A program made the translations under genes and the position numbers. From Ignavibacteriales bacterium (GTDB lineage: Bacteria > Bacteroidota > Ignavibacteria > Ignavibacteriales > Ignavibacteriaceae), in the NCBI GenBank assembly GCA_015709675.1, contig CP054182.1, forward strand, positions 372,001 through 436,000: a DNA stretch of 64,000 bases, read 5' to 3'. This document shows, in pieces, positions 4,223 to 57,920 of this stretch (its first letter is position 1; each line of letters opens with the position of its first letter). Below the pieces are notes generated by a model. The model had not been told where the DNA came from and did not search any database. It saw only the letters and a list, made by a program, of their open reading frames with translations.

Positions 4223-4319
4223 GGCAACCTCTTGTCATTTTTTGTCGGATATGTATCTCAAGTTTAAACATTCCCGGCCGGATATGCAAGAACTTCAGAC
4301 CCCGGAAAGTCGGGTTGTA

Positions 4320-14554: not shown

Positions 14555-14872
14555 ATGAGAATAATTTCGAAAAATACTCTACAGTCCTATTGGGAGGTGC
14601 ACGCTAATACAGAGCAGCCTCTCAAAAGCTGGTACGATGAAGTTAAGGACTGTTTATGGAATACTCCCGGTGATATTCATGATTTATTTCCAAAAGCTTC
14701 AATAATTGATAATAAGAGAGTCGTTTTTGATATCAAAGGAAACAGCTACAGATTAGTTGTTGATATCGAATATAAATTTAAAACCGTTTTCGTCATTTGG
14801 ATTGGCACCCATGCCGAATACAGCAAAGTAAACATCAAGGAATTACGCTATGTTAAAACCCATAAAAACTAG
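14555..14872 (+). CDS. HigB-type mRNA interferase toxin
   Basis: This 105-residue basic protein has the RelE-like HigB pattern (MRIISKNTLQSYW, then LKSWYDEV, KRVVFDIKGNSYRLVV and FVIWIGTHAEYSK). HigB toxins cut mRNA on the ribosome. I use the ATG at 14555; an upstream in-frame ATG at 14507 adds residues unlike the family. The antitoxin gene overlaps the 3' end by 23 bp, the toxin-first order typical of higBA. Confidence 0.9.
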   Translation: MRIISKNTLQSYWEVHANTEQPLKSWYDEVKDCLWNTPGDIHDLFPKASIIDNKRVVFDIKGNSYRLVVDIEYKFKTVFVIWIGTHAEYSKVNIKELRYVKTHKN

Positions 14873-15209
14873 TGAAGAATACGAAAATGCACTTGCAAGA
14901 GTGTATGAGCTGATACAGCTTGATCTGAAAGAAGACAGTGATGAGTTTATTGAATATCAGACTCTTGTACTTTTTATTGAAGCATATGAGGAAGAGCGTT
15001 ATAAATTTGCGCCTCCACATCCCATTGAAGCTATTAAGTTCCGAATGGATCAGATGAACGTTTCACCAAAACAGCTTGAGCTTATTTTGGGATCCCGCAG
15101 CCGTGTCTCTGAAATATTAAATGGGAAAAGAAAACTAAGTCTCTCAATGATTCGTCGTCTTAATAAAAAACTCCATATTCCGGCTGGAGTGTTGATAAAC
15201 GAATATTAA
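14850..15209 (+). CDS. HigA-type antitoxin with XRE helix-turn-helix
   Basis: The 119-residue antitoxin has an acidic, helical N-terminal half that should bind the toxin. A C-terminal XRE-type helix-turn-helix follows (IKFRMDQMNVSPKQLELILG, then SRSRVSEILNGKRKLS). It overlaps the toxin gene and is probably translationally coupled to it. By analogy with HigA it should neutralise the toxin and repress the operon. The operator would be in the gap before 14555. Confidence 0.9.
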   Translation: MLKPIKTSEEYENALARVYELIQLDLKEDSDEFIEYQTLVLFIEAYEEERYKFAPPHPIEAIKFRMDQMNVSPKQLELILGSRSRVSEILNGKRKLSLSMIRRLNKKLHIPAGVLINEY

Positions 15210-15249
15210 TTGATATTGGAAAACTGAAAGAGGATAATTACCATCAACT

Positions 15250-15556
15250 GAATCCGGAGGATTCGCATATCACAGCACGACCAATCCCGCACAGCAATAT
15301 ACAACTCCGCTGGAGTCGGATGAGAGACTAAACGGTATACAATTTTCTACCAATCTTCAATTCCGCTGGAATTGTTTTGAATCCGGAGGATTCATAAATT
15401 GGTAGAAATCAAATAAGCCCGAACCCCACCCCGAATCCGGAGGATTCGCAGATCATAACAAACCCAAACCAGTAGCAATATACGACTCCGCTGGAGCCGG
15501 AGAGGGGGGGTAAGCAGTTCATATATTTCTACCAGTCTCCAATTCCGCTGGAATTA
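15250..15556. repeat. Second palindrome array (GAATCCGGAGGATTC / CTCCGCTGGAG units)
   Basis: Two palindrome types alternate. GAATCCGGAGGATTC-like units lie at about 15250, 15380 and 15433. CTCCGCTGGAG or AATTCCGCTGGAATT units lie at about 15304, 15358, 15484 and 15541. One pair is enclosed by a longer inverted repeat (TTTCTACCAAT at 15344 and ATTGGTAGAAA at 15398), a BIME-like composite. The array fills the gap between the higBA-like pair and the convergent DinB-like gene. No transposase is adjacent. Confidence 0.85.
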
Positions 15557-15558
15557 AA

Positions 15559-16059
15559 TCACTCCACAGCCCTGAGCATCTGTTTCCTGTGCCGCTCTGA
15601 GTGATGGATGATAAATTGTGCCCACTCATACCGCGTCATTTCGCCGAACAGACCATGCTTAAATGATGTTATCAGCTCGCTCATGTCTTTTGTCTTTATA
15701 TACTCAGCCAGCATATTTCGGTTGGACGAAAATCTTTTGAGCAGCTCTTCTTTTGATTTTTCAGAAGCCGAAGGAATAATTGGTCCAAACGCGCTCAGCT
15801 TCTTTTCAGCATCACCAAACTTTTCCGCCATATCACTCACCTTTTCATCCGGTCTGCGCTCCGCGGCAACACCGTTTCCCCTGAAGAGCCGGTTGATAAG
15901 CAGCTCCGTCAGAACGATGTGTTCAGCACACTCCCCCGCCGACCACTTTTCCGGCGCGGGTTTGATGTTCAGCTTCTCATCCGGCACTGCGCTGATCGCA
16001 GCAATTATCTTTTCAGTTGAGTCCTGCAGCTCCGCAAGCAGTTCTTCCGTTGATTTCAT
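15559..16059 (-). CDS. DinB-family (DinB_2) putative metal-dependent protein
   Basis: This 166-residue helical protein has the conserved DinB layout. His in GECAEHIVLTE and a pair of His in FIIHHSERHRKQM are the expected metal ligands of the four-helix bundle. Family members include thiol transferases (BstA, YfiT) and many proteins of unknown role. I prefer the ATG at 16059 (MKSTEELLAEL); an upstream start at 16086 would add MYIIQENGN. The C-terminal HHSERHRKQM segment is the most diagnostic part. Confidence 0.85.
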   Translation of the reverse strand: MKSTEELLAELQDSTEKIIAAISAVPDEKLNIKPAPEKWSAGECAEHIVLTELLINRLFRGNGVAAERRPDEKVSDMAEKFGDAEKKLSAFGPIIPSASEKSKEELLKRFSSNRNMLAEYIKTKDMSELITSFKHGLFGEMTRYEWAQFIIHHSERHRKQMLRAVE

Positions 16060-50941: not shown

Positions 50942-50984
50942 AGAAGTCAGCGCACAGTAAACTTTACCGACTTTGCGTTTAAAA
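50923..50984. terminator. Convergent terminator hairpin that contains both stop codons
   Basis: TTTTAAAACGCAAAGT (50923-50938) pairs with ACTTTGCGTTTAAAA (50970-50984). The stop of mhqD (50939-50941) touches the left arm, and the stop of the convergent membrane gene (50979-50981) lies within the right arm. The arms contain the same ACTTTGCGTT word scattered through other intergenic regions of this window. Confidence 0.65.
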
Positions 50985-51404
50985 ATTGGCAGCCAATAAA
51001 ACCAGGACTATAACAACCAGCCCCGCAGCAGCAGCATACCACTCAGCATTACACTCATACTCCGTAACCCGCACCGTATCAACCCGGAAAATCTCCCGCT
51101 CCCGTACCAGAATCTCAAAATGCACCGCTACCGAATCTGCCGCCTCTTCAAGTGAAACCACCGCGGTATAACTTTCTGTAACAAGCGTGACCGGCGCGGA
51201 TTGCTCTTCCCTCCTTTTCGCGACTCTGTGACGGTACTTTTTTTCGGCAATTGTAGTATCCGCGGTTCCCTGTATATATACCGTATCAGCCGGAGCAGTA
51301 TCTCTCACCTGTATTTTGCTGCGGGAGCCTCTTCCCTCAATGAACCACCAGATGACAGCCGCGGCAAGGATAAGCAGCAGCAAATCAATCAGAATTTTTT
51401 TCAC
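50979..51404 (-). CDS. Small membrane protein of a phage-like module (spanin- or Rz-like)
   Basis: The 141-residue product starts with GTG at 51404, supported by AAAGGAG 9 bases upstream. It has an N-terminal helix (KILIDLLLLILAAAVIWWFI), a basic middle region, and a C-terminal hydrophobic tail (WYAAAAGLVVIVLVLLAANF). The gene overlaps the end of the upstream holin-like gene by 20 bp. Position next to a holin-like gene and a capsid gene suggests a lysis-type role, but no family is recognised. Confidence 0.7.
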   Translation of the reverse strand: MKKILIDLLLLILAAAVIWWFIEGRGSRSKIQVRDTAPADTVYIQGTADTTIAEKKYRHRVAKRREEQSAPVTLVTESYTAVVSLEEAADSVAVHFEILVREREIFRVDTVRVTEYECNAEWYAAAAGLVVIVLVLLAANF

Positions 51405-51633
51405 TGCCGGGGGCTCCTTTCTTTGCGTAGTGCACCAGCACATTACTCCCGAAAAAGAGACCGCAGATGATGCCGTAAGCCGAGGCAAGCTGAAACACAA
51501 ATGAAGGAAGCACTGAGGCCTCCATCTCAACACGGCAGACCGTCAGAATGGTCAGCGCGGAGAAACTGAAAAGCGCGAGCAGGAATCCGGTAAATTTTCT
51601 TGAACCTGGTTTTATCACAATTATTCCTTTCAT
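51385..51633 (-). CDS. Holin-like small membrane protein
   Basis: This 82-residue protein has two membrane helices (FTGFLLALFSFSALTILTV and VFQLASAYGIICGLFFGSNV) and a charged C-terminal tail, the typical size and shape of a phage holin. I take the start at 51633 (MKGIIVIKPGS); an ATG at 51681 would add 16 residues. It lies between the capsid gene (92 bp upstream) and the overlapping membrane gene. The holin role is an inference from size, topology and context. Confidence 0.65.
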   Translation of the reverse strand: MKGIIVIKPGSRKFTGFLLALFSFSALTILTVCRVEMEASVLPSFVFQLASAYGIICGLFFGSNVLVHYAKKGAPGSEKNSD

Positions 51634-51725
51634 AATGTTATATATACTTCCCCGCCCGGCCGGAGAGGAGAAAACCGGCATGGGCAGGGAAAGCAGGATG
51701 AGGTATCAGGAGAGGAGATAAGGTA

Positions 51726-52649
51726 TCAGGAGATGATAATACCTTCGAGCCGGGCTGCCGCCTTGCTGTTTGCAAGAGCAAGAGCGGTATCGAACTCAAC
51801 GCTGTGGATATAGTGTACCCCCTGCCTGCCGAGGTCTTTTACTTCAACCCCGACATTGCTCGGCAGGGTGAGATTATTCCTCTCCCCAAACCGCATAGCA
51901 TATATACTGGTGCAGGTAGTGGAAGATCCGACCGTTTCGTTATGAGGCAGGATTTTGTTTCCGCTCCGGTCAAAGCCGGCGGGGAGAACCGGTATCCCGT
52001 TAAAGCGGCTGAGCGGCTTGCCAAAATCATCCGAATCAATGGTCACCATATCAGCGGCAATGGAGCCGAGACGGCTGAGCGTTTTGGCATCCATCAGAAT
52101 CAGCTCGGCACCGCCGTCAACGCGGGAGATAAGATCATCCAGCAGTTCCAAAAACGTCTGCTGCTTTTTCTTCGCGGCATCGGTATTCCCCAGATCAACC
52201 GAAAGGCCGTTTGCATCAGCAGTGATTTTCTGAGAGCCGGTCACCAGCACTTTCAGTCCGTCGAAAGCATTCCCGTCCGAGGCAGAGCTTCCGTTGACGA
52301 AGAAGTTCTGGAACTGCTTGCCCAGATTCGCGGCAAAGTTAAGCAGCTCGGAAGCACGGATGCTTGCAACATCAATGCCTCTTCTCTCATGCGCGGCATC
52401 AACCATCACCTTATCCCCCAGAATTTTGAGCGCGGGGGTTATATACTGCGGCGTGACCGTATTATCGGGATAGTCGTTATCAAGCGCACGGAAGCGGCCG
52501 CCGGTTGCTGTGGCAGTGCGGCGCAGATAGTCAGCATTGCCTGACATCCGGTAGAATTCAGCAAAACCAAGCAGCGTGCCGTAGAGTGACATCTGCCGGA
52601 TGACCTGCTGGGTCAGCGGATCGGATGAAGAGATTTCTCGTAATTTCAA
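51726..52649 (-). CDS. Phage major capsid protein
   Basis: The 307-residue protein reads as a phage major capsid protein of the HK97-fold type. An N-terminal arm (SSSDPLTQQVIRQMSLYG) precedes a scaffold-like core with FQNFFVNGSSASDGNAFDGL, a helical spine (FLELLDDLISRVDGGAELIL) and a C-terminal beta part (GIPVLPAGF to VHYIHSVEF). The start is TTG at 52647-52649, with AAAGGA 9 bases upstream. It follows the protease/scaffold gene after 47 bp. No portal, terminase or tail gene is visible on either side. Confidence 0.8.
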   Translation of the reverse strand: MKLREISSSDPLTQQVIRQMSLYGTLLGFAEFYRMSGNADYLRRTATATGGRFRALDNDYPDNTVTPQYITPALKILGDKVMVDAAHERRGIDVASIRASELLNFAANLGKQFQNFFVNGSSASDGNAFDGLKVLVTGSQKITADANGLSVDLGNTDAAKKKQQTFLELLDDLISRVDGGAELILMDAKTLSRLGSIAADMVTIDSDDFGKPLSRFNGIPVLPAGFDRSGNKILPHNETVGSSTTCTSIYAMRFGERNNLTLPSNVGVEVKDLGRQGVHYIHSVEFDTALALANSKAAARLEGIIIS

Positions 52650-52696
52650 ATATTGGGTCCTTTCTTATTTCGTTTATATATATTTAATACTCAGTA

Positions 52697-53500
52697 TCAG
52701 CGCGGGGAGAGAGTTCTTTTGCGGATTTCATCGGCCATAATATCCGAAGCCGCGCGGGGCTGTTCAGGTTTTACCGCTATTTCTCCGAAGGTAACCTGTT
52801 TCGGCAGAGCAGAGACGAACTCCATCAGTTTTGGCACACCCTCCTTTTCAAAGAGCATTACGCCAATCTGCTGCAGTTCCTCTTTCTGGGCTGGAGTGAT
52901 AACGCCTTCATCAATCTTTGCATCCAGAAAGGTATTCAGTGCGGAGAAGGTATATTCCTCTTTTATCCTGCCAAGCTCTTCTTCCAGCTTTGTTTTTGAT
53001 GCGGTTTCGTTCTTAAGCATCTGCTCAAGCTTATCATTCAGAGCGCGGAGCTCTTCAAGCTGTTTGCGGAACTCATCGGCTGCATTGTGCTCCTGATACT
53101 CATATATATGAGCATCGGCGGGAGCATCACTGAACTGCGGATCAGCCAGCCCCTTAACGGCAGGAGAGGCGGCTCCCAGAAACCCGACATGACGGAGAGA
53201 GCCGTCGGGATTCAGGGCAACGGAGCGTTTTTTGAAGAATCCGTTTTTAACCGCCTCGGTAAAGAGAGGAAGGAGCCTGGAGGGGAGGGCGAGAAGACGG
53301 TCGCCGCTGCGTTTGAGGGCCTGGATCCATCCGTAAGCCGGAGCGTCATCCTTCGGATGGCCTATGACAATGGGAGCTTCATGCTGAGCGGGATTGTAGG
53401 AGGAGACAATCTTGTCCAGATCAGCTTCAGTCCACTCTTTGGTTCTTCCGGCGAAGTCTGTGTGTTTACCCGTCCGGAAGATTTCAAACCATTTGTGCAT
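52697..53500 (-). CDS. Phage prohead protease/scaffold-like protein
   Basis: This 267-residue protein resembles Mu GpI-type capsid protease/scaffold proteins. The N-terminal domain has FEIFRTGKHTDFAGRT, VSSYNPAQHEAPIVIGHP and FFKKRSVALNPDGSLRHV. A long coiled coil (about residues 135-180, DEFRKQLEELRALNDKLEQM) serves as scaffold, and a basic C-terminus ends in RKRTLSPR. I use the ATG at 53500 (MHKWFEIF); an ATG at 53518 adds six residues. Protease plus scaffold in one chain directly before the capsid gene is the normal phage order. Confidence 0.8.
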   Translation of the reverse strand: MHKWFEIFRTGKHTDFAGRTKEWTEADLDKIVSSYNPAQHEAPIVIGHPKDDAPAYGWIQALKRSGDRLLALPSRLLPLFTEAVKNGFFKKRSVALNPDGSLRHVGFLGAASPAVKGLADPQFSDAPADAHIYEYQEHNAADEFRKQLEELRALNDKLEQMLKNETASKTKLEEELGRIKEEYTFSALNTFLDAKIDEGVITPAQKEELQQIGVMLFEKEGVPKLMEFVSALPKQVTFGEIAVKPEQPRAASDIMADEIRKRTLSPR

Positions 53501-53721
53501 TAGTACGTTGCCTTTCATAATTATTATAAATACGGTGGCAAAAGTAATTGCGTGACAGAGCGGAGTCAGGTGAAGGAAGCAGTTGACTTTGTTAATTGAT
53601 AGTTGAGAATTGAGAATTGAGAATTTTAAATGAAAAAATGAAGAATGAAGAATTGAACTTGTGTGGGCGGGTGAAACTTTGCGGGGTTTTGCGTTGAACT
53701 TTGTTTGCTTTGCGTTTACTG

Positions 53722-53843
53722 GTCGCCTTCAAACTCACCCCCAAACCCCCTCTCTTCTGACAAACTATGTTTAAACTGCATATATGTTTCTTCGGATTGC
53801 GGGTATTGTGTTTGTAAAAATCTGTATTGAAAAGAGGGGGCTT
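53722..53843. repeat. MITE-like element, copy 1
   Basis: The ~122-bp element begins GTCGCCTTCAAACTCAC, has CCCCCTCTCTTCTGACAAAC, a central TGCATATATGTTT and ends AAAAGAGGGGGCTT. The C-rich left part and G-rich right end are inverted relative to each other (CCCCCTCT / AGAGGGGG). No coding capacity. Copies 2 and 3 lie at 54397 and 58409 in the same orientation. Confidence 0.85.
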
Positions 53844-53879
53844 AAGAATTTATTGATTGTGATTGGGTTTTAACAAACT

Positions 53880-54345
53880 TCACAAAAATGGCACTTTGAT
53901 ATGTCGCACCTGCGGCGCTTCGAAAATTTGATTGAAGACACCCCTATTGATATATCGCATCTCTGATGCTAAATTATTATTGTCCCGTTCGGGGCAGAAT
54001 ATTAACAGGAAAATATCTAAAACAAAAAATACCGAACCCGCGGAGCGGGTGACCAGTTAATAGCAATTGTAAATATCACAACACCCCCGAACCCGCGGAG
54101 CGGGTGACCTGTTAATAGCAATTGTAAATATCATAACACGCCCGAACCCGCGGAGCGGGTGACCGGTTAATAGGGCTGGGAAAAATACCAGGATTCCTAA
54201 ACCGCGTTAGCGGTGAAATATTATAAAACCGAACAAATCTCCCCGTACCTCTCAGGAGCCGCGTAGCGGCGACCCATTAATAGAATCCAAATACATACCA
54301 CACCCCTGAACCCGCGTAGCGGGTGACCCATTAATAATAATGTAA
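53880..54345. repeat. Third palindrome array (GAACCCGCGGAGCGGGTGACC units)
   Basis: Five clear units lie from about 54030 to 54335. Each has a CCCGCGGAGCGGG, CCGCGTTAGCGG, GCCGCGTAGCGGC or CCCGCGTAGCGGG palindrome, followed by TGAC(C/A)...TTAATA and a spacer such as GCAATTGTAAATATCA. Looser units (TCGCACCTGCGGCG, TGTCCCGTTCGGGGCAG) lie at 53905-53985. The tail TTAATA matches the array at 9.1 kb, although the palindromes differ. Confidence 0.85.
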
Positions 54346-54396
54346 CAAGTCAGCACACCCGCTTAAATGTAAAACCCCGCACCGACGCACAAAAAA

Positions 54397-54506
54397 ACTC
54401 ACCCCCAACCCCCTCTCTTCTGACAAACTAAGTTTAAGCTGCATATATGTTTGTGCGGGTTGCTGGTAGTGTGTTTAGAAAAATCTGTATTGAAAAGAGG
54501 GGGCTT
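54397..54506. repeat. MITE-like element, copy 2
   Basis: The 110-bp copy lacks the GTCGCCTTC start but is otherwise co-linear with copy 1. It has CCCCAACCCCCTCTCTTC, GTTTAAGCTGCATATATG and the ending GAAAAGAGGGGGCTTA. It separates the palindrome array from the DUF4411 gene side. Confidence 0.85.
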
Positions 54507-54554
54507 AAAATGAAGGGGTTTAGTCTCTTTGCGGCTTTGCACGAGATCCTTTGG

Positions 54555-54690
54555 GCGGAAGAAAATCACGAAGTGATGATATTATTATAGCAGAAAATAT
54601 ATACCCCGGCACCCCAAACCACGAAGTGGTGACATTATAGTTTACGGGAAACGGCGCGGGAGCCCAGTGATATATTAAACTCGGGATGAT
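54555..54690. repeat. Short palindrome units beside the DUF4411 gene
   Basis: ATCACGAAGTGATGATATTATTAT, ACCACGAAGTGGTGACATTA and GAGCCCAGTGATATATTAAAC follow the same palindrome plus TGA(C/T)ATATTA layout. They lie 3' of the DUF4411 gene. Confidence 0.7.
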
Positions 54691-54724
54691 TCTCAACGGT
54701 ATAACCCCAACACCACCCTTAATG

Positions 54725-55225
54725 CTAGAACGTCTCTTTAAGATTTCTGAACATTTGGAGCGTGTTGACATAATTGACACCAAAGGCAATGCAAGCATCA
54801 GGGACTTTTATACTAACTTTGGATTCCGGGCGGCTTACTTCCTGCGTAACTAACACTCTGTTTTCTTTTTCGGCAAGGCAATATGCAACAAGAAATGCAT
54901 CCGCTCTGTCAGCATGACAAAAATCCTCTATAGCTTTTTGGACAACATAATCTTTCTTAAAATTTGCCCAACGGAAAACCTGAGCATATTCATTCATTAC
55001 CCCTGATGTATCACGGAAGAAATTTCCCGGAAGATTATTTTCGCACCAGTGGGCAAGCAAATCCTTATTGTTATAAATTTCATCCCCGACTTTATCAATA
55101 CTTATAATTTTATCTTCTTTGGCTAATGCACTTATTTTATTCCAAAACCCCGGTACTACATCCATCGGGTAATATACGCGATGTGCTTCTATTAAAAAGT
55201 TTGCATCCACTACATAGACCGGCAT
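54725..55225 (-). CDS. DUF4411 PIN-like protein (toxin-like partner of ImmA/IrrE)
   Basis: This 166-residue protein starts MPVYVVDANFLIEAHR, the PIN-like first Asp. It has IEDFCHADRADAFLVAYCLA with further acidic residues, and RVLVTQEVSR. DUF4411 proteins are PIN-related and usually sit next to XRE-ImmA/IrrE peptidase genes, as here (5 bp gap). The pair behaves like a toxin-antitoxin or stress module in genomic surveys; no activity can be proven from sequence. Confidence 0.85.
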   Translation of the reverse strand: MPVYVVDANFLIEAHRVYYPMDVVPGFWNKISALAKEDKIISIDKVGDEIYNNKDLLAHWCENNLPGNFFRDTSGVMNEYAQVFRWANFKKDYVVQKAIEDFCHADRADAFLVAYCLAEKENRVLVTQEVSRPESKVSIKVPDACIAFGVNYVNTLQMFRNLKETF

Positions 55226-55230
55226 CGGAT

Positions 55231-56358
55231 CTACTTCAACCCCGACATAAAATTAGCGAATGTATCCCCGTGCAGCCCGGTTAAATGACAGGCATCGCGG
55301 TAAAGGAGCTGTCCCGATTTTAGTGCATGATTAACATGACCGGCAAAGGTAAGACTTATTCGTTTGTTTGATGTGTTATAAAAATTTCCGCCGGAACCCT
55401 GCTTCTCTTTTTTTATAAATTCTTTCTGAGAATAGTCATCCCAAAAGGCAAAGAATTCCTTCTTTGTCATCTTACCGGTATCAAGCGCACGGCGTGCTAT
55501 AACTATTTCACTAACCTTAAAATGTCTCGCGCATCCTGTTATGCCGGTGCTTTCATTCCAGATGTTATTGAAAGCATCTTCAGGGACCAGAAATTCCGCG
55601 GCTATTTTATCGCAAAAAATTTCAACCGGATCGTCAGATGGCTGCAGTTTTCTAAAATCAAATCCCGCGCTATGCCCGGTCCAGATATGTGCCAGTTCAT
55701 GTGCCATGGTAAATATCTGAGCGGATTTCCAGTCAGCATTATTGATGAACATAAAGGGGGCAAAATTATCCGTAAGCACAAAGCCCCGGCATTCATCAAC
55801 CGGAACAGGGCGATGTGTGTTATTCTCAACCACCCCGTTAATAACTGTTATAATGCCAATATTTTCAATGCACTGGTCTAAATGCACCAACGCCTCCTGC
55901 CAGGTTGAGAAATCAGAAGCCCAGTTTTCTTTCAGCCCGAGTGCAGAGCGAATATCCGAGGCAATAGTTTTAATATCCTGCCCTAATTTATATTTCCCAA
56001 CAAATGGCAGAGGGTCAAATCCGTTTTCATTCAGATAATTTTTAAGCCATTCCTGCCTCTGCTGTAAAATCAGTATGGTATCATAAACATTAATATTAAT
56101 CCTGTCAGAGGGACTGCTCCCCGTGCGGTAATATGGTATCGGAATTTTTTCGTCAGGGGGTGCGGGGAGAAAAAAATAACCAAACGGCAGATAAACCTTT
56201 TTGGAAAAATCCTGAAGCTGCTTAACTGTGGGTTGCCTTTTTCCCTCAAGCCAAAGCTGAATGCTGGAGTTTTTTGCCAAAAACTCAGGCAAATTCAATC
56301 CGGCCCGGTTAATAGACCAGAGAATGATATCCGGGTTTACTGCTATTCTGTTAGTCAT
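55231..56358 (-). CDS. XRE-like/ImmA-IrrE family zinc metallopeptidase
   Basis: This 375-residue protein has an N-terminal helix-turn-helix-like region (residues ~10-60; NPDIILWSINRAGLNLPEFL). A zinc peptidase domain carries MAHELAHIWTGH (HExxH at 220-224) and downstream CDKIAAEFLVPEDAF with a likely Glu ligand. ImmA cleaves phage repressors and IrrE controls stress genes. Here the start lies 176 bp from the divergent KAP gene, and the DUF4411 gene follows with a 5 bp gap, so the two are one unit. Confidence 0.9.
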   Translation of the reverse strand: MTNRIAVNPDIILWSINRAGLNLPEFLAKNSSIQLWLEGKRQPTVKQLQDFSKKVYLPFGYFFLPAPPDEKIPIPYYRTGSSPSDRININVYDTILILQQRQEWLKNYLNENGFDPLPFVGKYKLGQDIKTIASDIRSALGLKENWASDFSTWQEALVHLDQCIENIGIITVINGVVENNTHRPVPVDECRGFVLTDNFAPFMFINNADWKSAQIFTMAHELAHIWTGHSAGFDFRKLQPSDDPVEIFCDKIAAEFLVPEDAFNNIWNESTGITGCARHFKVSEIVIARRALDTGKMTKKEFFAFWDDYSQKEFIKKEKQGSGGNFYNTSNKRISLTFAGHVNHALKSGQLLYRDACHLTGLHGDTFANFMSGLK

Positions 56359-56534: not shown

Positions 56535-57920
56535 ATGACCTTGGTCCACGATATTCTTATAACCAAAGAGAACCCATTCGAAAATGATGTCTTGAATTTT
56601 CGTGATCATATTCACCAATTTTGTTCTCAGTTTATTTTTAGAAAAATTCCGCTCTCTGCTGTTGTAGGCATCACGGGAGAATGGGGAACAGGAAAATCTA
56701 CCTACTTAAAAATGCTGCAAATGCATGCTGAGGGAAAAAACAAAGATGTAATATACTTTAACGCCTGGAAGTATGAATTTTACGAAGATCCGCTCATAGC
56801 CATCTATTTTGAAATGGAGTCAAAATTTAAAGAAGTTTTAACTCTTAAAAAATACAAGAAAGTATTAAATGATTTCAAGTTATATGGAACACAATTTATA
56901 AAATCAGTTTTAATTAATTCTATTAGCTATGTCAGCGAGGGAATTATAAATCTGCAGGATACAAAGGATAATGTTAAAAAAATTAAAGAAAAACAGGCTA
57001 CTTTGCTTGAGAAGAGGATTGAGGACTTAAAAGGGGCAAAAGAACTTGTTGATCGTTTTTCAGATTCAATCGCTACGCTTGCTAAAATAATTAACGAAAA
57101 TACAGACTCCCCACTGATAATTATTATTGATGAACTGGACCGCTGTCTGCCTCCCCACGCACTAAAACTGCTTGAAAGAATAAAACATATACTAAGTGTA
57201 CCCGGGGTAGTTTTCATTATTGCATACGATAAGAACCAACTCAGCCACTCCTTGAAAACGTTATATGGAAACGATTTCAATATCGAAGGTTATCTAATAC
57301 GCATAATTGATCATGAAGTTGCTATTCCAAGCTTGTTTTCCGCGGAATATTTTAACAAGTGTGCTGATAAAGTTGTTCTTTCAAACAATATATACATTGA
57401 CAAATTTGATGAATCTTATAAAGGTCTTAATCCCTTTGCGGTTACTAATATTTTGATGAAATTATCTCTTAGGGATCAGCAATATATTATGCACAATATC
57501 TACTCACTTAACAATAAGAATAAAAATATTACAAAAATAAGCTATCTGTTGGTTTACTTCTACTTTCTTGGAGGATTAAAATTAAAAAATCCTTCCGTCT
57601 TTAAATTATTTGAGAGCGGTACAATTACAAAAGCTGAGTTTTATCGAAAAGTTCTGCCTGCGTTAAACCCCTTAGAAAGAGATGAAGTGATTATCGGAGG
57701 AGCAGAAATTTTAATGGCAATTGTTTTAACAATAATAAGCTTGATAGAAGGGGAGCAGAATCCAAATAATTTAACCTCACTTAACTTAAACGGGGTAAAC
57801 CTTGAATTTAACGTTCATCTTGTTGCTGACGTTAAGACTAGGATGACAACACAAAGGATTACCAATCTTAAAAATATCCCCAAACTATATTCCGAGTATC
57901 CAACCTTTAGTTTGGATTAA
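56535..57920 (+). CDS. KAP-family P-loop NTPase
   Basis: This 461-residue protein matches the KAP family. It has Walker A TGEWGTGKST (47-56), the family block YFNAWKYEFYEDPLIAIYF, and Walker B LIIIIDELDRCLPPHAL (about 194-210). An insertion between A and B includes a hydrophobic helix (FIKSVLINSISYVSEGII). KAP NTPases occur in phage-exclusion proteins and membrane complexes. The coding region is clearly AT-rich compared with its surroundings, a sign of transfer. It is divergent from the ImmA/DUF4411 unit. Confidence 0.9.
   Translation: MTLVHDILITKENPFENDVLNFRDHIHQFCSQFIFRKIPLSAVVGITGEWGTGKSTYLKMLQMHAEGKNKDVIYFNAWKYEFYEDPLIAIYFEMESKFKEVLTLKKYKKVLNDFKLYGTQFIKSVLINSISYVSEGIINLQDTKDNVKKIKEKQATLLEKRIEDLKGAKELVDRFSDSIATLAKIINENTDSPLIIIIDELDRCLPPHALKLLERIKHILSVPGVVFIIAYDKNQLSHSLKTLYGNDFNIEGYLIRIIDHEVAIPSLFSAEYFNKCADKVVLSNNIYIDKFDESYKGLNPFAVTNILMKLSLRDQQYIMHNIYSLNNKNKNITKISYLLVYFYFLGGLKLKNPSVFKLFESGTITKAEFYRKVLPALNPLERDEVIIGGAEILMAIVLTIISLIEGEQNPNNLTSLNLNGVNLEFNVHLVADVKTRMTTQRITNLKNIPKLYSEYPTFSLD

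Follow-up and report, generated by a model that had tools for sequence, protein, structure and literature searches.

Head and lysis genes without a tail in an Ignavibacteriales bacterium: a candidate half of a split, satellite-derived gene set

A compact module of phage-type genes

The window analysed here, a stretch of 64,000 nucleotides from an Ignavibacteriales bacterium of the family Ignavibacteriaceae (positions 372,001 to 436,000 of contig CP054182.1, assembly GCA_015709675.1), contains an isolated set of phage-type head genes. Four intact genes lie on the minus strand at 50979-53500 and are transcribed in the order head maturation protease/scaffold, major capsid protein, holin-like protein and second membrane protein. 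An earlier note, made from the sequence alone, had delimited a compact four-gene module at 50979-53518, and all four of its genes proved to be real.

The protease gene (52697-53500, minus strand, 267 amino acids [aa]) has a scaffold-like C-terminal part and matches phrog_976 in PHROG with an E-value of 5e-54; an alternative in-frame upstream ATG at 53518 would extend it to 273 aa. In Pfam it reaches Mu-like_Pro at a sub-threshold E-value of 0.0065, and its GHP and LRH-GFLG blocks are common to the window and six relatives. The capsid gene (51726-52649, minus strand, 307 aa) matches the major head protein family phrog_212 (E 2.6e-40) and, in Pfam, only GP7 at a sub-threshold level. Its predicted structure (predicted local distance difference test score 89.1) has the HK97 fold. 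Foldseek places encapsulins first among the matches of this model (best E 1.6e-12, TM about 0.6), several of these encapsulins carrying the label Family 2; the top 50 also include the capsid of a native gene transfer agent (GTA) particle and HK97 heads.

The two remaining genes encode membrane proteins, neither of which has a significant family match in Pfam or PHROG. The putative holin (51385-51618, minus strand) is 77 aa long when read from a GTG that follows AAAGGA, the listed open reading frame (ORF) reaching up to 51681. It is 35% and 32% identical to the genes at the same position in loci L053 and L059. A profile built from the window gene and its counterparts in G402b and G458 matches four more loci of the tailless capsid clade described below (G442, G441b, G402a and G403). 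The second membrane gene (50979-51404, minus strand, 141 aa) overlaps the holin gene by 20 bases and encodes a protein that is hydrophobic at both ends; by position and build it might be spanin-like, and genes of similar build come after the holin in the relatives. Read by eye in transcription order, the starts are ATG, TTG, GTG (or ATG at 51633) and GTG, each with an AAAGG-like Shine-Dalgarno sequence. The GTG and TTG starts with such sites that the earlier note had pointed out are present, the TTG at the capsid and the GTGs at the membrane genes.

The flanks are likewise as they had been described. Glyoxalase (mhqO-like) and esterase (mhqD-like) genes, the mhq names being those of the earlier note, adjoin the module on one side, and about 1.2 kb of intergenic dispersed repeats (53519-54724) adjoin it on the other. 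Partial copies of the repeats (53600-54640) occur by the dozen at other places in this genome, and a number of them are found in the congeneric genome. Several relatives have a divergent terminase-portal arm at this place; in the window, a tblastn search of 53519-54724 with 27 query proteins found no remnant of such an arm (best E 0.09). Nine proteins around the module were compared with Pfam, and their matches include neither an integrase nor a regulator of the type found in phage-inducible chromosomal islands (PICIs); no cargo enzyme gene was recognised among the scanned neighbours. Nor was a transposase found among the scanned proteins next to the module and at the partner locus introduced below, no genome-wide transposase search having been made. 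The host-like word TATATA is frequent in the module, as had been noted (9 occurrences against 0.27 expected, both within and between genes), and throughout window positions 1-64000 (122 against 14.25 expected under a first-order model, about 8.5 times).

Beyond the repeats lie a DUF4411 and IrrE/ImmA-like gene pair (54725-56358), possibly a toxin-antitoxin or defence unit, and then a KAP-family NTPase gene (56535-57920).

Portal and large terminase at a second locus

The module had been characterised as lacking portal, terminase and tail. Locally this is correct, since none lies nearby; for portal and terminase it does not hold genome-wide, because one portal and a large terminase (TerL) are found 465-470 kb away. 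This distance is measured across the contig ends and assumes that the single 4.21-Mb contig is circular; otherwise it is 3.7 Mb. The only relative of the window capsid in this genome is the window capsid itself. The sole Mu-type portal (PF06074) is an open frame of 354 aa at 4,167,714-4,168,775, and the sole TerL of this type is an open frame at 4,169,055-4,170,398. Together with a 209-aa gene and a small membrane gene, they form what we call the partner locus (4.167-4.170 Mb). TerL has matches to both terminase domains and shares its WEKSRR-GAT and DEFA blocks with four relatives. A homologue of the small membrane gene adjoins the terminase in prophages. The 209-aa gene has no Pfam or PHROG family match; out of 80 genomes in the family, two contain it, and both belong to the window's genus. 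As at the module, no integrase or regulator is found among the Pfam matches of the four proteins.

Selection and descent

In the other genome of the window's genus that was compared (G001, 88% complete), the 209-aa gene, portal, small membrane gene and TerL occur in the same order and on the same side of infB-nusA-rimP, with different intervening genes; the TerL frame is open there on reading of the frames. With the partner locus in one and the same context in both species, its descent appears to be vertical. Between the window's genome (G000) and G001, a plain Nei-Gojobori count, in which synonymous divergence (dS) above about 2 is saturated, gave ratios of nonsynonymous to synonymous divergence (dN/dS) of 0.09 for the portal (dS 1.53), 0.06 for TerL (dS 1.84), 0.13 for the small membrane gene (dS 0.66) and 0.13 for the 209-aa gene (dS 2.33, saturated). 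For seven host genes of the same genome pair, dN/dS is 0.02-0.24 and dS 0.26-1.11. Since the values of 0.06-0.13 fall inside the host range, the phage-type genes of the partner locus are constrained as host genes are. In three of them dS is higher, for which weak codon bias or exchange may be responsible.

The dN/dS comparison that the earlier note had proposed concerned the four window genes. At their locus there is no G000/G001 gene pair, the corresponding site of G001 falling between contig ends, and the comparison is confined to the divergent G442, in which the ratio of the proportions of nonsynonymous and synonymous differences (pN/pS) is 0.30 for the capsid and 0.49 for the protease with synonymous sites near saturation. 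Purifying selection is seen at the partner locus and presumed for the window genes. The window capsid keeps 61 of the 65 columns that are invariant in 14 relatives.

A split is also found in another genus, represented by G441 and G442, and it is a different one. There, the same host genes flank TerL in both genomes, away from portal and capsid; in the window's genome it is the capsid that lies apart from portal and TerL. The portal adjoins the capsid in G442 and apparently also in G441, where contigs C83 and C31 abut inside one small gene. Two TerL pieces at two contig ends of G442 overlap on the profile and represent one or two copies. In G441, a 26-codon remnant of a capsid C-terminus, 77% identical, was also observed (G441:C38:121107-121184, in L046). 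A decaying prophage is present in the same family as well: in G433, portal, protease and tail tube are in pieces, although the capsid shares 92% identity with its G237 counterpart.

A clade of tailless capsids

Capsid matches were found in 18 of 395 genomes of the phylum and in 18 of 164 genomes of the order, the window's own included. With the single window capsid as query, the search returned no relative on viral contigs and one on genome contigs (L047); with the capsid alignment as query, it returned 95 viral relatives, of which 80 were kept and 35 scanned with profiles. Five of the related loci (G237, G433, G497, G458 and G440) are Mu-like prophages with neck and tail genes, and those whose stretches reach far enough also carry MuF, GemA and transposase genes. 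Comparison of the module loci at the DNA level revealed no common element ends, and the ends of the prophages were not placed to the base.

The earlier note had proposed looking for the module without phage neighbours. Eight capsids belong to short units, here called tailless, with no recognised neck, MuF or tail gene except one weak neck match in the G441 C60 unit (the window, G442, G441 twice, G402 twice, G403 and G444), and they group together in the capsid trees, apart from the Mu-like prophages, with support of 90/92 in the first tree and 86/80 in the second. The second tree includes 15 viral rows and omits six distant rows of the first; it assigns G280 to no group. The gene content of the units varies. 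G442 has a spanin-like gene, holin, capsid, protease and portal; G403 has an amidase, membrane gene, holin, capsid and protease, followed by a small membrane gene, small terminase (TerS), TerL and portal; G444 has portal, TerL, TerS, protease and capsid, with host genes on either side. Because a contig end lies within 0.6 kb of the units of G402 C193, G403, G441 C31 and G442, parts missing from these four may lie off the contig.

One viral contig, L183, fell inside the window capsid clade without having been chosen for it. It carries portal, TerL, TerS, protease, capsid, one neck-like gene and an integrase-like gene, and searches for a tail tube and a tape measure gave no match in the 17 kb examined. 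The other 14 viral rows of the second tree have neck or tail matches. The capsid-clade member L053 carries an integrase together with a repressor-like gene. L183 also contains TIR-like (2294-2761) and ArdC-like (14857-15738) genes, named by eye, which are possible cargo. In G280, which belongs to another family of the class, a capsid is accompanied by holin-like and amidase-like genes, again named by eye; this capsid lies about 96 kb from a Mu-type portal, and host genes surround both (L025 18090-19755 and G280:C1:121452-122435).

Searches for neck and tail genes

Profiles of neck1 and neck2 were built from five prophages, and those of MuF and gpG from four each. Among the prophage stretches, neck1 and neck2 matched six of six, MuF five of six and gpG four of six. 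The 26 other stretches gave one weak neck1 match (1.3e-5, in the G441 C60 unit, G441a) and one gpG match, in G476, which we did not count as tailless; none of these profiles matched at the window or at the partner locus. The tail-tube profile matched none of 11 genomes with tailless units, the window's genome included, and all three prophage genomes, of which G237 and G497 had contributed to the profile and G433 had not. The tape-measure family PF20155 was found in none of eight genomes with tailless units, and not in the window's genome, versus the one genome with a prophage. When 70 non-core proteins from 12 tailless loci were compared with PHROG, one head-tail adaptor and no tail family were listed, a second list showing 25 of the 26 families; the scan covered ORFs shorter than 600 aa, within chosen intervals, that did not match core head proteins at 1e-5. 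All these tail searches are blind to a very different tail type elsewhere in a genome.

Other tailless units in the order

A portal search matched 42 of 164 genomes of the order, and 20 stretches were fetched. They revealed a second lineage without recognised tail genes, found in G405, G426, G447, G431, G470, G125, G382, G462 and G463, with portals of 359-420 aa; the prophage portals in the same tree measure 466-512 aa in four cases and 420 aa in G142. Two further members of the portal-search set, G460 and G476, may be tailed. The capsid of the second lineage is of the phrog_1005 type (tested for L128 only and assigned to the others by similarity or by eye), and several of the stretches stop at contig ends. 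The same capsid type, 57% identical, also occurs in a tailed prophage, G515, which has neck, MuF and tail-tube matches. Taken together, the units of this lineage have genes for an integrase, a CI-like repressor, excisionase-like proteins, replication initiation and a helicase loader, integrase and/or regulator genes being present in L133, L135 and L136. In gene content they are built like phage satellites that produce heads of their own.

Units combining portal-TerL with protease-capsid were observed in the second-lineage stretches L125, L128, L129, L131, L135, L136 and L138-L141, one of them with a C5 DNA methylase. In two genera, such a unit has a pfkA-like gene (named by eye) as its neighbour, with the same orientation in both (L131 2179-10517 and L128 1-9999), which could mean either vertical descent or a common insertion site. 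A third kind, a short and apparently tailless capsid unit with small regulator-like genes, occurs in G067 (L027 3041-12357) and G492 (L061 8681-13624); the capsids of the two are 66% alike.

Discussion

Based on these observations, we propose that a tailless satellite lineage has left a retained, split derivative in this genome and that the window genes are its shell-and-lysis half, a reading to which we give about an even chance. The other half of the head set would be the 209-aa gene, portal, small membrane protein and TerL at 4.167-4.170 Mb. According to this proposal, the set descended from tailless, capsid-forming satellites related to Mu-like phages, and in this host it would have lost integrase and regulators, come to lie at two sites and been retained by selection. 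The protease would mature a head built from the capsid protein, TerL would load DNA into this head through the portal, and the holin with its membrane partner would release the particle by lysis. Given that no neck or tail genes were found, the particle might be either a tailless GTA-like carrier of DNA or a user of the tail of a Mu-like helper. The window genes and the partner locus would probably make tailless DNA-packaging particles; that the two loci work jointly, that particles form, and that DNA is inside them and leaves them is what we infer. It is tempting to go further and to see here a host-owned tailless DNA-packaging particle that is GTA-like except for the tail, its genes for head, motor and lysis being split and passed on by vertical inheritance in two genera of the same family, but this fuller version is tentative and clearly less probable than the general one.

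Several observations weigh against the proposal. No TerS was recognised at the window or at the partner locus, and the amidase-type endolysin of the relatives was not found in the window's genome by a profile that matches 2 of 14 genomes, G402 and G403, both of which are sources of that profile. In both species of the genus, the conserved N-terminus of TerL has no ATG, GTG or TTG before it; the start region shows an ATA after AGGAGG or AGGGGG (G000:C1:4168992-4169059, which is L090 10493-10560, and L124 about 4256-4300). The dS of portal (1.53) and TerL (1.84) exceeds that of all seven host genes, which leaves room for recombinational exchange. Selection on the window genes had to be judged from divergent comparisons because the locus has no close relative among the genomes compared, and the window capsid, with four of the 65 otherwise invariant columns lost, exceeds 13 of its 14 relatives in such losses. 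The trees are not in full agreement either: the first capsid tree needs two changes of the tailless label, since the more distant G280 locus is counted in, the group is not recovered with support in the protease tree (17% of bootstrap trees), and the portals of the tailless loci fall into several clades rather than one, that of the G441 C60 unit grouping with the second lineage. Finally, two members of the capsid clade, G441a and L183, have a neck-like gene.

The main rival is a drifting remnant, that is, a tailless satellite or Mu-like prophage broken apart, perhaps at dispersed repeats, whose open frames are merely left over. We consider it unlikely, yet a serious competitor. Integrase, regulator, TerS, neck and tail are all unrecognised, repeats lie at the very edge of the module, four invariant capsid columns are lost, TerL has a non-canonical start, and the 26-codon capsid remnant in G441 shows that loss does occur. 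However, the frames are open at both loci, and dN/dS at the partner locus is 0.06-0.13, though with the dS of portal and TerL above that of host genes. What a decaying element looks like in this family can be seen in G433, where portal, protease and tail tube are broken despite the 92% capsid identity to G237. The earlier note had offered two options, a decayed prophage or a domesticated shell. With intact genes, a capsid from the tailless clade and purifying selection on the partner locus in two species, the domesticated, GTA-like option fits better and the decayed prophage less well. The finding that the note would have taken as a refutation, relatives with a full prophage at this place and decaying module genes, did not turn up, the site in G001 lying between contig ends.

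It is improbable, in our judgement, that the set is a still mobile satellite of which the window holds half, making its own head and borrowing the tail of a Mu-like helper as capsid-forming PICIs (cf-PICIs) do. Members of the capsid clade do have an integrase and a repressor-like gene (L053) or an integrase-like gene (L183), and potential helpers exist in the form of Mu-like prophages in the family and order, with capsids 56-59% identical. Against this, the set occupies two distant sites without an integrase, the partner locus has one chromosomal context in two species, and neither locus has a head-tail connector match. Comparably small is the chance that the genes are an anti-phage device, the host keeping a portal, capsid or protease that poisons or derails the heads of infecting Mu-like phages. 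The Mu-like prophages of the family do have homologous capsids, proteases and portals, and retention without tail genes would be sufficient for interference, but interference alone needs none of the TerL domains and blocks, the holin or the membrane partner that have been kept. An encapsulin-like compartment with its own protease and pore, which the earlier note had also suggested and to which the best Foldseek matches of the capsid model point (several of Family 2, E 1.6e-12, TM about 0.6), is very improbable, because a maturation protease/scaffold and a holin-like gene adjoin the capsid and portal and TerL are retained elsewhere in the genome, while the capsid sequence is that of a phage major head protein (phrog_212) and reaches 61% identity to capsids that have neck or tail genes next to them, and no cargo enzyme gene was recognised among the scanned neighbours.

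If the window genes and their partner locus are indeed a retained, split satellite derivative, they are of interest beyond this genome. Tailless phage-head genes are usually read as wreckage; here, the capsid clade, the genus-specific splits and the low dN/dS point to long retention. Natural replicates are offered by the second lineage of tailless head units in the order, which is the larger one. Should particles form, they would link capsid-forming satellites with GTAs and suggest a route from satellite to host organ. The usefulness of a portal-capsid-motor set without a tail becomes a testable question. Among the papers listed in our literature searches there was no description of such a split tailless head-gene set.

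Comparison with known systems

Among known systems, encapsulins share with the window capsid an HK97-fold shell protein, but here that protein stands beside a protease, with portal and TerL in the genome, and no cargo enzyme is found among the scanned neighbours. The Mu-like prophages of G237, G433, G497, G458 and G440 resemble the set in having a protease followed by a capsid, a homologous small membrane gene, portal and TerL, and the prophage of G458 additionally has a holin-like gene homologous to that of the window. They differ in having neck and tail genes and, where the stretch reaches, MuF, gpG, GemA and transposase, and their portals are longer (466-481 aa in G237, G497 and G458 versus 354 aa at the partner locus).

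GTAs such as RcGTA have phage-derived genes at more than one locus, are inherited vertically under purifying selection and combine protease, capsid, portal and terminase with lysis-type functions. To our knowledge, all of them have tails. Compared from genes alone, the present set resembles them in head genes that are vertically kept under purifying selection, seen in G000 and G001 for the partner locus only, and differs from them in that the window's genome has no tail-tube or tape-measure match.

Satellites that form their own capsids, in the shape of cf-PICIs, are together with GTAs the closest of the known kinds. According to PMC10690885, cf-PICIs encode capsid, protease, portal, head-tail connectors and terminases, and the helper supplies only the tail; PMC11389934 reports three capsid clades of their own for them, and PMC13230959 uses a separate capsid group as an argument for a satellite rather than a cryptic phage. 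The window capsid similarly falls in a clade apart from phages (90/92 and 86/80 here), and no tail genes were found in the window's genome or in the tailless loci. Capsid, protease, portal and TerL are all present in the window's genome, not in one element but at two loci about 470 kb apart, and no TerS was recognised at either. The window set further differs in being without integrase, regulator or head-tail connector, in its Mu-like portal and protease and phrog_212 capsid, and in the attached lysis-type genes. The Mulch and Flayer satellites of Streptomyces phages, compared by their description in PMC10690885 only, also have their own head and packaging genes, and differ in their hosts, in a head-to-tail adapter and, in one case, in a tail-fibre module of its own. 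We speak of a retained, split satellite derivative because the set departs both from cf-PICIs (being split, lacking integrase, regulator and connector, and having an apparently vertical partner locus) and from GTAs (having no tail).

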